Positions 7,630 to 19,764 of a DNA stretch of 64,000 bases are shown piece after piece (the stretch's first letter is position 1; each line of letters starts with the position of its first letter). The stretch is from positions 124,001 to 188,000 of the forward strand of contig NZ_FNCF01000007.1 of NCBI RefSeq assembly GCF_900100695.1. Direction: 5' to 3'. This stretch comes from Klenkia brasiliensis. GTDB taxonomy: Bacteria; Actinomycetota; Actinomycetes; Mycobacteriales; Geodermatophilaceae. The position numbers and the translations under genes were made by a program. Under the pieces are notes generated by a model. That model worked only from the letters and a program-made list of their open reading frames with translations. It searched no databases and was not told the origin of the DNA.

Positions 7630-8805
7630 TCAGGGGGTGAGGACGACCTTCTCGCAGTGGTCCTGCTTGTGCTTGAAGACGTCGTAGCCGTGCGGGGCCT
7701 CCGACAGCGGCAACCGGTGGGTGATGATCCGGGTCGGGTCGATCTCGCCGCGCTCGATCCGCTCGAGCAGCGGGCGCATGTACCGCTGCACGTGGCACTG
7801 CCCGGTGCGCAGGGTGATGGACCGGTTCATCCACGCCCCGGCCGGGAACTTGTCGATGAACCCGCCGTACACCCCGATCACCGACACGATGCCCCCGCTG
7901 CGGCAGGACGTGATGGCCTGGCGCAGCGCGTGCGGGCGGTCGGTCTCCGCGCGCACGGCCTGCTTGGCCCGGTCGTAGAGCTGCACATGCGCGGCGCCGT
8001 GCGTGGCCTCCATGCCCACGGCGTCGATGCACTTGTCCGGGCCGCGGCCACCGGTGAGCTCGAGCAGCCGGGAGCGGACGTCGGTGTCGGAGTAGTCGAT
8101 GGTCGTGTAGCCCTGGGACGCGGCCATCTCCAACCGGTAGGGGACGTCGTCGATGGCGATCACGTGCGCCGCACCGAGCACGCGGGCGGAGTCCATCGCG
8201 AACTGCCCGACCGGCCCGGCGCCCCAGACGGCCACGACGTCGCCGTCGTGGATGTCGCACATGTCGGCACCCATGAAGCCGGTGGGCAGGATGTCGGAGA
8301 GGAAGAGCACCTGCTCGTCGGTGAGGTCGGACTCGATCTTCAGCGGGTTGACGTCGGCGAGCACCACCCGGGCGTACTCGGCCTGGCCGCCGGCGAAGCC
8401 GCCGGTGAGGTGGGAGTAGCCGTAGATCCCGGCGGTCGGGTGGCCGAACATCTTCTCCGCCAGGCCGGCGTTGGGGTTGGTGTTCTCGCAGCACGACCAC
8501 AGGTCCGCCAGGCACGCGGCGCACGCCCCGCAGCCGATCGGGAAGGGGACGACGACGCGGTCGCCCACCCGCAGCTTGTCCCGGTCCACGCCGGGGCCGA
8601 CCTCGACGACCTCGCCCATGAACTCATGGCCCATGATGTCGCCCTTCTGCATCGTCGGCACGTAGCCGTCGAGCAGGTGCAGGTCCGAGCCGCAGATCGC
8701 CGTGGAGGTGATCCTCACGATCGCGTCGCGGCTGTTCAGGATGGACGGGTCGGGCACCTCGGTGACCTCGACCGTGTTCGGGCTGATCCAGCAGTTGGCC
8801 TTCAT
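7630..8805 (-). CDS. Zinc-dependent alcohol/formaldehyde dehydrogenase-like MDR (paralogue 1)
   Basis: This 391-residue medium-chain dehydrogenase has the catalytic zinc ligands in CGSDLH (Cys38) and GHEFMGE (His60, Glu61). The structural zinc Cys cluster lies in GCGACAACLADLWSCCENT (about 92-106), and the Rossmann motif WGAGPVGQFA follows. Family members oxidise alcohols or aldehyde adducts with NAD+. The ATG overlaps the stop of the SRPBCC gene (ATGA, 8802-8805), so the pair is coupled. A close paralogue of identical length lies at 16040-17215, also preceded by an SRPBCC-like gene with the same ATGA overlap. The substrate is unknown. Confidence 0.92.
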   Translation of the reverse strand: MKANCWISPNTVEVTEVPDPSILNSRDAIVRITSTAICGSDLHLLDGYVPTMQKGDIMGHEFMGEVVEVGPGVDRDKLRVGDRVVVPFPIGCGACAACLADLWSCCENTNPNAGLAEKMFGHPTAGIYGYSHLTGGFAGGQAEYARVVLADVNPLKIESDLTDEQVLFLSDILPTGFMGADMCDIHDGDVVAVWGAGPVGQFAMDSARVLGAAHVIAIDDVPYRLEMAASQGYTTIDYSDTDVRSRLLELTGGRGPDKCIDAVGMEATHGAAHVQLYDRAKQAVRAETDRPHALRQAITSCRSGGIVSVIGVYGGFIDKFPAGAWMNRSITLRTGQCHVQRYMRPLLERIERGEIDPTRIITHRLPLSEAPHGYDVFKHKQDHCEKVVLTP

Positions 8806-9743
8806 GCCAGTGCCTCCGCGCGCTCGTCGTCGGTCAGGGGGTGGGCGGGGTGCTGCGGGAACTCCTCGCGGGCCTGCTTGCCGCGGGGTGCGCCGTCGCT
8901 GCGGACCACCTCACCGGTCTCCATCACCTGCTTGAACCGGCGCAGGTCGTCGTCGAGCTGCTGGGAGGGCTCCTCCCCGAACCACCGGGCGACGGCCTTC
9001 CCGACCGCCCCGCCGGGGATGCGGTAGTTCAGCGCCACGTGCACCTCCGTGCCCCGCCCGCCGGGCGCGGGCAGGAAGAGCACCTCGCCGTTGTTCGGCA
9101 CGTCGGCGCCGTCGAGGGAGCGCCAGGCGATCCGCTCCCCGGGGACGTCGGCGGTGGTCTCGGCGTCCCACTCGACGGACTTCCCGAAGGGGGCGCTGGC
9201 CTTCCACCGGCTGCGCCCGCCCCCGGTGTCGCGCACCTCGTCCAGGTGTGCCATGAACGTGGGCAGCCGGTCGAGCTGGCGCCAGAACGCGTACACCTCC
9301 TCCGGTGGCCGGGTGACGGTCGTGGTCGACGTGAGCTCCATGGGTCTCCTGGTCTCTTTCCGGTTCGAGCGGGTGAGGGCGGCGTGCACGTCGACGGCGG
9401 TCACGACGGCCAGGGCCGCCGTGCTGAGCACCGTGCGCTGCAGGCCGCGGCCGTCGTGGTGGCGCAGGGCGCGGCCCATCAGCGTCAGGTCCATCGCGTC
9501 GCCGCCGACGCGGGCCCACAGCCACGCGGGGTGCGGGCGGCCGAGCAGGCCGGCCGCGGCGACCAGCTCCCGGACGCCGACGACCACCGTGGCCGTGCGG
9601 TGCCGGGGGGCGTCACCGACGCCGAGGGCCCGGGCGACCTCGGCCGGTCGCAGCACCTGCGGGACGCCGAGCGCCGCGCTGAACAGGCCCAGGCCGCGGG
9701 TCAGCGGGTCGGCCCGCAGCGGTGCGTGGGGTGGGGACGGCAT
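8802..9743 (-). CDS. Membrane-helix domain fused to SRPBCC (cyclase/dehydrase) domain
   Basis: The protein has 313 residues. Residues 1 to about 130 contain hydrophobic stretches (LGLFSAALGVPQVLRP, VVVGVRELVAAAGLLG, VLSTAALAVVTAVDVHAAL) of the DUF4267-like kind often fused to this family. From residue 135 comes an SRPBCC domain (VTRPPEEVYAFWRQLDRLP, GGRGTEVHVALNYRIPGG) that would form a hydrophobic ligand pocket. The ATG at 9743 has GGAGG just upstream. A second in-frame ATG at 9341 has AGGAG upstream and could yield the SRPBCC domain alone. First gene of a two-gene operon with the zinc dehydrogenase; a dyad operator lies 63 bases upstream. Confidence 0.85.
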   Translation of the reverse strand: MPSPPHAPLRADPLTRGLGLFSAALGVPQVLRPAEVARALGVGDAPRHRTATVVVGVRELVAAAGLLGRPHPAWLWARVGGDAMDLTLMGRALRHHDGRGLQRTVLSTAALAVVTAVDVHAALTRSNRKETRRPMELTSTTTVTRPPEEVYAFWRQLDRLPTFMAHLDEVRDTGGGRSRWKASAPFGKSVEWDAETTADVPGERIAWRSLDGADVPNNGEVLFLPAPGGRGTEVHVALNYRIPGGAVGKAVARWFGEEPSQQLDDDLRRFKQVMETGEVVRSDGAPRGKQAREEFPQHPAHPLTDDERAEALA

Positions 9744-9805
9744 CGCGCACCTCCGGGTGTCGGTCGTCGGAGCACCCAGCCCACCTCCGGGGTGCCGGTC
9801 GGCGC

Positions 9806-9825
9806 CATCGGCAGGTCTGCCGATG
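9806..9825. promoter_or_regulatory. Dyad operator, island copy 1
   Basis: CATCGGCAG (9806-9814), GT, CTGCCGATG (9817-9825): perfect 9-base arms with a 2-base spacer. It lies between the divergent SRPBCC (start 9743) and DJ-1/PfpI (start 9903) genes. A near-identical site lies at 18935-18952 at the other end of the island, next to a LuxR-type regulator. A further half-site ATCGGC is at 9851-9856. An 18-20 base dyad is the usual size for LuxR/NarL-type dimers. Confidence 0.75.
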
Positions 9826-9902
9826 TGGTGCGCGGTCTGCGGCGGCTTCCATCGGCGTGCACCCCGAGCCCGGCGGGTCGCAAGAGTGCGGAGGTGGCCG
9901 AC

Positions 9903-18832: not shown

Positions 18833-18934
18833 GGTGCCTCCTCGTCCGTTGCCGATCCCTGGTCGCTGCGTACGTCCACCGGACGCCGGGCGCCGGGCGC
18901 CCCTCCATCCGACGCCGGGACCGCGGAGCGGGGT

Positions 18935-18952
18935 ATCGGCAGACCTGCCCAT
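18935..18952. promoter_or_regulatory. Dyad operator, island copy 2
   Basis: ATCGGCAG (18935-18942), AC, CTGCCCAT (18945-18952): seven of eight arm bases pair, and 15 of 18 bases equal the core of the perfect dyad at 9807-9824. A further half-site TCGGCAG follows at 18959-18965. It lies in the 242-base gap between the divergent MDR operon (start 18832) and the LuxR-type gene (start 19075), which contains no other gene. Confidence 0.7.
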
Positions 18953-19074
18953 CCGGGCTCGGCAGGTCCCTCGACAGGACGCCGGCGCCGGGATCCGTTA
19001 GACAGGTGGCAGCGGCCCGGCGGCGGCCACGTCCAGACTGGGCGTCGGTGTCCCGCCCTGGCCCTGGAGAGCCC

Positions 19075-19764
19075 ATGGCGCCACCGAGCGCTCACCCGGT
19101 CGGGATCGCCGACCCCGCCCGTCCGTCGTGCGGACGGGCGCCCGAGCTGCAGACCTGGGCGGAGTGCTTCCGCCCGGCCGGCTACCTGCAGGCGCTGCGC
19201 CTGTCGCTGGTCGGGGACGGGCGACGCCAGGCACAGCCCCAGCGCTCGGTGACCTCCGCCGTCCGGCTGGTCCGCGGCGCGACCGCCGGGGCGGTGCTGC
19301 ACCGCCGGGGTACGAGCCCGCTGCCCGGTCTCGGGGAGGACGACCTGCTGGCCCCGCTGTCGCCGGTCCTCGACGTCGCCCGCTCCCGGATGGAGGAGGG
19401 GCTGGTGTTCGCGACCTTCCTGTGGCCCCGGGGCGGGGCGCACGCCCCGAACGGCCACACCCGGGTGACCGTGCTGAGCTGCCCGGACGCGGCGCCGGCC
19501 GGCGTGCTCGGCGCCGTCGTGCTGTCCCCGGCGGGTGACCTGCGCGGGCTGACGCCCCGGGAGCTCGAGGTGCTCGGTCTGCTGGTCGACGGCTGCACCA
19601 ACCAGGAGATCGCCCGGGCGCTGGTGGTCGCGCCCCGCACGGTGGCGGCCCACCTCGAGCACGTCCTGGTCAAGCTCGACGCCTCCACCCGGACGCTGGC
19701 CGCGGTGCGGGCCGAGCGGGAGGGTCTGCTCGTGCCCTCGCTGCCCTCGCCCTGCCGGAGCTGA
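19075..19764 (+). CDS. LuxR/NarL-type transcriptional regulator
   Basis: The protein has 229 residues. The C-terminal helix-turn-helix (about 160-215) reads LTPRELEVLGLLVDGCTNQE followed by IARALVVAPRTVAAHLEHVL, the LuxR signature. The N-terminal 150 residues are not a receiver domain (no phosphorylation Asp pattern) and look like a GAF-type or unknown sensor. The ATG at 19075 is preferred, with GGAGA a few bases upstream; the open frame extends left to 19006 without conserved sequence. It is divergent from the six-gene operon, with a dyad in between, and the same dyad occurs 9 kb away. I infer that it is the regulator of the island. Confidence 0.88.
   Translation: MAPPSAHPVGIADPARPSCGRAPELQTWAECFRPAGYLQALRLSLVGDGRRQAQPQRSVTSAVRLVRGATAGAVLHRRGTSPLPGLGEDDLLAPLSPVLDVARSRMEEGLVFATFLWPRGGAHAPNGHTRVTVLSCPDAAPAGVLGAVVLSPAGDLRGLTPRELEVLGLLVDGCTNQEIARALVVAPRTVAAHLEHVLVKLDASTRTLAAVRAEREGLLVPSLPSPCRS

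Follow-up and report, generated by a model that had tools for sequence, protein, structure and literature searches.

The locus and its genes

A stretch of 64,000 nucleotides from the actinobacterium Klenkia brasiliensis (NCBI RefSeq assembly GCF_900100695.1, contig NZ_FNCF01000007.1, positions 124,001 to 188,000 of the forward strand; hereafter the window, whose first letter is position 1) contains, between positions 7630 and 19764, an island of thirteen genes in which an 18-bp inverted repeat, or dyad, occurs in two promoter regions, one of them next to the gene of a LuxR-type regulator (19075-19764, plus strand). As argued below, this dyad is probably the operator of that regulator and of its relatives in other actinobacteria. 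Dyad 1 (ATCGGCAGGTCTGCCGAT, 9807-9824) is a perfect inverted repeat with the half-sites ATCGGCAG-GT-CTGCCGAT, and dyad 2 (ATCGGCAGACCTGCCCAT, 18935-18952) reads ATCGGCAG-AC-CTGCCCAT; both are listed as putative operators, with no strand assigned. They are identical at 15 of 18 positions, two of the differences falling in the free N2 centre and the third being the single half-site base at which dyad 2 departs from ATCGGCAG-N2-CTGCCGAT, and a pattern scan of the window bears out the first-pass annotation of this DNA, which had described a perfect site and a second one sharing 15 of 18 bases.

Dyad 1 lies between divergent genes. On its minus-strand side are found SRPBCC1 (8802-9743), with Polyketide_cyc domains at residues 136-275 of 313, and MDR1 (7630-8805), a protein of 391 amino acids (aa) of the Zn-dependent alcohol dehydrogenase family. 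The start of SRPBCC1 is probably 9743, an in-frame ATG following the Shine-Dalgarno sequence GGAGGTGCGCG, and the divergent gap around the dyad is therefore taken as 9744-9902. On the plus strand follow a DJ-1/PfpI family protein (9903-10457; best PDB match 2vrn), a DUF1345 membrane protein (10457-11140; 176.9 bits, scanned as 10319-11140), the glucosyl-3-phosphoglycerate synthase GpgS (11163-12128; 403.1 bits for NF010496, with an equivalog cut-off of 262, its PDB matches being GpgS structures) and a GT4-type glycosyltransferase (12125-13339; scanned as 12128-13339). The first gene behind dyad 2, on the minus strand, is MDR3 (17684-18832), close to glutathione (GSH)-independent formaldehyde dehydrogenase (PDB 4jlw, E 1.2e-88). 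It is followed on the same strand by the SRPBCC-like protein 2 (SRPBCC2, 17212-17682), which had no match in a Pfam scan at 0.001 and falls into one BLAST cluster with SRPBCC1 and its relatives, and by MDR2 (16040-17215), a DUF1345-like protein (15321-16034; 16.3 bits, under the 31.8-bit DUF1345 cut-off), a Gfo/Idh/MocA oxidoreductase (14363-15316) and MDR4 (13284-14366; zinc-binding dehydrogenase domain, scanned as 13284-14312). The LuxR-type regulator itself is truncated, having kept a PAS-like part and the GerE helix-turn-helix (HTH) and lost a GAF-like part. The gene content first proposed for the island thus holds, with refinements concerning the start of SRPBCC1, the DUF1345-like protein below its cut-off, GpgS above its equivalog cut-off and the truncation of the regulator. 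Genes were called with a simple caller of our own; in the window an over-long call was exchanged for SRPBCC1 (8802-9419) and DJ-1 was added by hand.

Within the window, two matches to the dyad pattern at up to 3 mismatches were found against 0.38 expected, a number reached in 3 of 100 shuffles. Across the whole genome (4,451,590 bases) no more than two sites come within 1 mismatch, and both are in the window, so that the pair is rare and confined to one 10-kb stretch, and the dyad is not, at this stringency, a common element of unrelated promoters. One further site has exactly 2 mismatches, and the other 25 of 28 matches have 3, a level at which the control with the reversed pattern is also rich (15 matches) and at which the matches are consequently mostly chance.

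Association of the dyad with the LuxR gene

The dyad pattern was defined from the window alone and tested afterwards in other genomes. Among 112 Geodermatophilaceae genomes, a profile of six homologues (A1) at E 1e-25 or better found a homologue of the regulator in 30, hereafter LuxR-positive. The dyad at up to 1 mismatch is present in 31 of the 112 and the reversed pattern in 1, a control that is probably too low, since the pattern contains TAG/CTA, which is scarce in such genomes; the LuxR-negative genomes are the fairer comparison. Against these, the dyad occurs in 24 of 30 LuxR-positive and 7 of 82 LuxR-negative genomes (Fisher 5.6e-13, a value that overstates the association because the genomes are related), and stratification by genus preserves the signal (Cochran-Mantel-Haenszel p 1.2e-10, odds ratio 43.9). 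In the genus of the window, only two of nine genomes (G000 and G004) carry either element, and each carries both. LuxR-positive genomes contain 59 dyads, 41 of which are no further than 30 kb from a LuxR gene. Of the other 18, 12 belong to assemblies with over 500 contigs; the 6 outside such assemblies are possibly trans sites or chance.

MDR3 provides a second line of evidence. Its orthologues (at least 80% identity) are found in 22 of the 112 family genomes, all 22 of them LuxR-positive (Fisher 5e-17), and the dyad stands just upstream within 3 mismatches in 20 and within 2 mismatches in 17 of the 22. The two exceptions are G086 and G080; in G080 the LuxR match also ends where the HTH region begins, which speaks for the link. 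A paralogue at 60-64% had an upstream dyad in none of the eight loci examined (L265-L272). In G004, the only other LuxR-positive genome examined from the genus of the window, a perfect dyad and the MDR3 operon are present. The comparison of genomes therefore lends good support to the suggestion that the LuxR-type regulator is the one to which the dyad belongs, and that the dyad goes together with this gene set among relatives.

Promoter geometry

By our gene caller, 150 of 153 site rows are intergenic (some genomes being entered twice), and 169 promoter directions remained after identical ones were taken out. When these promoters are aligned on the dyad, the informative downstream columns, dyad edges aside, are positions 41-49. 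The motif TnnnAT starts 22 or 23 bp past the dyad in 29 and 21 directions, respectively (50 of 169), and at 78 other offsets combined it occurs 22 times; the motif having been chosen after the alignment columns were seen, the evidence lies in its fixed place and not in its sequence. Taken as the -10 element, it would put the centre of the dyad near -44, with the dyad covering -35. As judged from these positions, the promoters with this spacing would match the arrangement of a class II activator, namely an operator over -35 at a fixed distance from -10.

In the window, -10-like boxes are present 22 bp past dyad 1 towards DJ-1 (TTCCAT, 9847-9852, plus strand) and 22 bp past dyad 2 towards MDR3 (TCGGAT, 18907-18912, minus strand), and the spacing was not found from the dyads towards SRPBCC1-MDR1 or the LuxR gene. 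Autoregulation of LuxR by the same geometry was considered and rejected, since it appears in 0 of 25 directions towards the LuxR gene. The original proposal that the two dyads cover all thirteen genes does not stand as written, the geometry being present in two of the four directions of the window, towards DJ-1 and MDR3; ten genes would thus be accounted for, provided that the operons extend as drawn.

A composite pattern of dyad and -10 box is found in 20 of the 112 family genomes, comprising 19 of 30 LuxR-positive and 1 of 82 LuxR-negative genomes; the latter (G128) has a centre unlike that of the dyad. The geometry also served to discard candidates. The dyads of the seven LuxR-negative genomes (G060, G062, G078, G032, G112, G117 and G132) look like chance or another use, because the -10 spacing is absent in both directions. 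The third site of the Klenkia genome (C3:90814; DUF1440-like/CtaG; L003/L087), with 2 mismatches, is a probable chance match, as there is no -10 box at the expected offset either way and the reversed control likewise has one match in this genome at that stringency.

LuxR loci beyond the family

When GTDB genomes were scanned for the regulator, 79 named LuxR loci were obtained from the best 80 of 96 matches; they belong to Blastococcus, Geodermatophilus, Modestobacter, Pseudonocardia (including P. dioxanivorans CB1190), Cellulomonas, Kineococcus, Microbacteriaceae, Nocardioides and others. In their 1.42 Mb, 14, 46 and 88 dyads were found at up to 0, 1 and 2 mismatches, and 200 shuffled half-site palindromes gave means of 0.01, 0.07 and 1.16 and maxima of 1, 8 and 35, never reaching the observed numbers. 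A site within 2 mismatches is present in 54 of the 79 loci: with groups assigned by hand from record titles, 17 of 23 in Geodermatophilaceae, 7 of 11 in Pseudonocardia(les), 5 of 5 in Cellulomonas, 2 of 2 in Kineosporiales, 12 of 15 in Microbacteriaceae, 3 of 5 in Nocardioidales and relatives, 3 of 9 in Micromonosporaceae and 5 of 9 in others. The set A2 comprises 45 of the 79 loci (L177 was left out for an internal stop, the others were not chosen), and A3 has 24 rows. In Plantactinospora, variant sites of the form ATTGACAG-N2-CTGCCGAT (L219:6010 and L222:8512) stand before a more distant LuxR gene, perhaps reflecting a shifted specificity.

Class-wide, a loose version of the composite pattern is noisy, matching 59 of 394 genomes: 6 of the 13 whose LuxR match has an E-value of 1e-50 or lower, plus 53 of the 381 others. 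Dyad-like centres were recognized by eye in four LuxR-positive genomes (G000, G226, G334 and G402) and two LuxR-negative ones (G363 and G330), and in G226, G334 and G402 they lie about 5 kb or less from the LuxR gene.

Genes behind the dyad

The commonest first gene belongs to the MDR cluster, with 58 of the 169 directions, 37 of them having the -10 box, and a recurrent operon order is MDR3, DJ-1, SRPBCC2, MDR2 and DUF1345. In the window, this set is divided between the two sites, dyad 1 preceding DJ-1 and DUF1345 and dyad 2 preceding MDR3 and MDR2. Other first genes include those for GT4, DUF2254, SRPBCC1-MDR1, DJ-1 and a glycogen-debranching-like enzyme, as well as small open reading frames (ORFs). 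The module of GpgS, GT4, Gfo/Idh and MDR4 is also found close to a dyad or LuxR in Blastococcus TF02-09 and two metagenome-assembled Blastococcus genomes; in TF02-09, the gene behind the dyad of the module encodes a GDPD-type phosphodiesterase.

Small conserved ORFs near dyads were noted in several islands, among them 79-aa ORFs (L079:14364-14603 and L078:16141-16380) and clusters of 72 and 200 aa; both 79-aa copies and one 200-aa copy had no Pfam match. Just past the LuxR gene of the window, a GH15/trehalase-like hydrolase (19910-21763) and an NhaA-type Na+/H+ antiporter (21845-23131), both on the minus strand and without a dyad, are possibly stress genes.

The LuxR-type regulator

Full-length relatives of the regulator have about 340 aa. 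The secondary structure of one model (pLDDT, the predicted local distance difference test, of 89.6) looks like a GAF-like part at about 20-162, a PAS-like part at about 175-262 and an HTH at 271-326. Fold matches of this model include phytochromes (root-mean-square deviation of 13 and more over the whole chain), VqmA, SdiA, CviR and TraR, with DevR and NarL among the matches of the HTH; the best match of a single part is 3k2n, with a TM-score of 0.71 by 3k2n's own length. The GerE domain (PF00196) was identified in the window protein (3.5e-15) and in two full-length relatives (L079:14621-15670 and L077:13894-14913), and none of the three had a Pfam match to a sensor domain, including the autoinducer-binding domain, or to a receiver domain. 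LuxI synthase (PF00765) was over the cut-off in 0 of 31 genomes, that of the window included, with one sub-threshold match in G037, and 14 control genomes also gave none, leaving the sensitivity of this search unproven.

In the structure model of the window protein, residues 1-50 are of low confidence and the PAS-like part and HTH are good. Its private changes affect codon positions 1, 2 and 3 in 8 of 100, 4 of 113 and 10 of 34 cases, a pattern indicating that the part kept has been under purifying selection, at least before the truncation, which some of this branch may predate. A second LuxR-like paralogue (L080:996-2039 and L078:6036-7079) aligns with the family and adjoins a dyad of its own; the L080 copy had no Pfam match at 0.001, and so no GerE, and the paralogue is possibly a non-binding partner or antagonist.

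Enzymes and physiological role

The closest PDB entries to MDR3 are 4jlw, 1kol and 2dph. In TIGR02819, however, it scores 336.1 bits against an equivalog cut-off of 636.95, so that it is not an equivalog of GSH-independent formaldehyde dehydrogenase; MDR1, MDR2 and MDR4 reach 183, 145.2 and 20.8 bits. The DJ-1 protein narrowly passes the subfamily cut-off of TIGR01382 (DJ-1/PfpI/YhbO; 141.7 against 139.05 bits) and does not reach the deglycase PfpI equivalog (117.2 of 330); its nearest structure, 2vrn, is entitled 'Protease I' and is, we presume, a Deinococcus protein. GpgS serves the synthesis of compatible solutes.

The best guess for the role of the regulon, judging by the kinds of genes it would comprise, is protection from reactive carbonyls and from desiccation or osmotic stress. 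Curtobacterium carries the LuxR locus (L203 and L207), and drying of Curtobacterium aetherium raises LuxR regulators (at 50% and 25% water and below) as well as a GSH-independent formaldehyde dehydrogenase (at 25% and 0% water; PMC12029717), neither being mapped to the dyad locus. It stays a best guess since these genes, like those of a Nesterenkonia proteome considered below, are not established as a dyad locus and since MDR3 falls under the equivalog cut-off.

A model for the regulon and its alternatives

A mechanism consistent with the dyad, its co-occurrence with LuxR, its placement in promoters and the -10 spacing can be proposed. A dimer of the GAF-PAS-GerE LuxR solo would occupy the 18-bp inverted repeat some 44 bp ahead of the transcription start, where it would replace the -35 element, and would activate operons headed by MDR genes, with a core of MDR3, DJ-1/PfpI, SRPBCC, MDR2 and DUF1345 and with variable partners such as DUF2254, glycosyltransferases, the glycogen-debranching-like enzyme and, in the window, also GpgS. 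Expression of DJ-1/DUF1345/GpgS/GT4 would depend on dyad 1 and that of MDR3/SRPBCC2/MDR2/DUF1345-like/Gfo-Idh/MDR4 on dyad 2. On the whole, we consider it quite probable that the LuxR-type family uses the dyad as its operator and activates a carbonyl- and desiccation-type regulon from it. A wider hypothesis, which we put forward tentatively and hold to be less probable than not, is that in several actinobacterial families the GAF-PAS-LuxR solo responds to a small molecule, internal or shared (a reactive carbonyl, the redox state or a signal), and switches on a dispersed carbonyl and desiccation defence through a tra-box-like operator, some lineages, including that of the window, having dropped the GAF part and so rewired the input.

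Several findings weigh against the activator reading, besides the relatedness of the genomes and the low reversed-pattern control mentioned above. The -10 spacing is missing in 119 of the 169 directions, including all those towards the LuxR gene. Six of the 30 LuxR-positive genomes (G080, G086, G011, G021, G114 and G120) have no dyad at up to 1 mismatch; in several of them the LuxR match is partial or weak, and G086, which has nine LuxR-type matches but no dyad at its MDR3, is a plain counter-example. Once 2 mismatches are allowed, the pattern ceases to discriminate, 53 of 60 relatives matching with LuxR present or absent, and at up to 3 mismatches in the 79 loci (128 observed, mean 13.2) 1 of the 200 shuffled half-sites exceeds the observed number. 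In 25 of these loci, including 6 of the 9 from Micromonosporaceae, no site at up to 2 mismatches was found in the DNA examined. Most of the GAF-like part is missing from the window protein, together with about 30 residues from its interior, and the copy of G004 (C21:29689-30326) is broken across frames. As for the role, enzyme functions rest on homology, from which the aldehyde role of the island is also deduced, and in a Nesterenkonia proteome, FdhA and an SRPBCC protein drop under UV and recover later (PMC8965627), these not being mapped to such a locus.

Some of these points invite other explanations. The system might be decaying in Klenkia, the LuxR gene being a truncated remnant and the dyads being relics or read without the lost sensor input. 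The missing GAF-like part, the low-confidence residues 1-50, the split copy of G004 and the occurrence of LuxR in only two of the nine genomes of the genus agree with this, but the frame is open, the HTH is intact, the codon positions point to purifying selection, at least before truncation, and both dyads and both -10 spacings of the window are intact, so that we regard decay as somewhat unlikely. It is unlikely, too, that the regulon is catabolic, serving the use of alcohols, sugars or polyols, and not protective: the four MDR genes, Gfo/Idh and glycosyltransferases of the window, the debranching-type enzyme of relatives and, in Cellulomonas L176, a dyad adjoining an ABC ATP-binding protein (a label read from sequence) would suit such a role, whereas DJ-1/PfpI, GpgS and a ClpC-like ATPase in islands of relatives suggest protein repair and compatible solutes, in line with the drying response described above for C. 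aetherium, itself not mapped to the dyad locus.

The two remaining alternatives concern the dyad itself. LysR genes adjoin dyads in several islands, and LysR proteins of two clusters are encoded in 12 of the 38 named loci with a dyad at up to 1 mismatch, as would be expected if a LysR-type regulator read the dyad and the LuxR gene were a mere neighbour; nevertheless, 26 of these loci are without such proteins in the DNA examined, the regulator adjoining the dyad is LuxR in the window, L192 and L203, and TraR, too, is known to use an 18-bp inverted repeat placed in this class II manner, all of which makes this improbable. Finally, a perfect inverted repeat within GC-rich DNA could be a structural or repeat element (an RNA hairpin, a REP-like sequence or a terminator), an idea already disfavoured and hardly credible given the intergenic position of nearly all sites, their fixed distance to a -10-like box and their tie to the presence of LuxR.

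Significance and comparison with known systems

If the operator reading is right, a precise operator and promoter geometry can be proposed for a family of orphan regulators found in Geodermatophilaceae, Pseudonocardia, Cellulomonas, Microbacteriaceae and other soil actinobacteria, making the regulon of this family readable from genomes. Genes whose role is obscure (DUF1345, DUF2254, DUF2267 and small ORFs) would also gain a shared regulator, and one could ask which signal underlies the stress tolerance of actinobacteria from deserts and rocks.

Regulators of the VqmA type consist of a PAS sensor followed by a GerE-type HTH, which is the layout of the truncated window protein, and VqmA ranks 8th and 12th among the fold matches, its TM-scores being low when taken over the whole chain. 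Unlike VqmA, the full-length relatives of the dyad family have an extra N-terminal GAF-like part, and they belong to a different phylum. Regarding the enzymes, FdhA (GSH-independent formaldehyde dehydrogenase/formaldehyde dismutase) is the nearest to MDR3 by PDB and TIGR02819, yet MDR3 stays under the equivalog cut-off. The actinobacterial dormancy regulons of DevR/DosR and OsdR share the LuxR/NarL-type HTH and likewise have palindromes before stress genes, many of them around the regulator (PMC5069765). However, these are two-component response regulators, and no receiver domain was found in the window family; the OsdR consensus given there, AGGGCCGATCGGCCCT, also differs from the dyad (PMC5069765).

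The closest parallel to the operator is TraR/LuxR with the tra box in Agrobacterium, which likewise combines a GerE HTH with an 18-bp inverted repeat, the TraR structure 1l3l being among the fold matches of the relative's model at rank 46. The tra box presumably shares with the dyad a GCAG/CTGC core. TraR in class II placement sits about 45 nucleotides before the start of transcription and overlaps -35 (PMC3907764). In contrast to TraR/LuxR, the sensor part of the window family has no Pfam match to the autoinducer domain and its putative targets are metabolic and stress operons. A search of the open-access literature found no description of the dyad or the regulon; the parts are, then, of known kinds, and it is the pairing of the GAF-PAS-LuxR family with this operator and this gene set that appears to be new.

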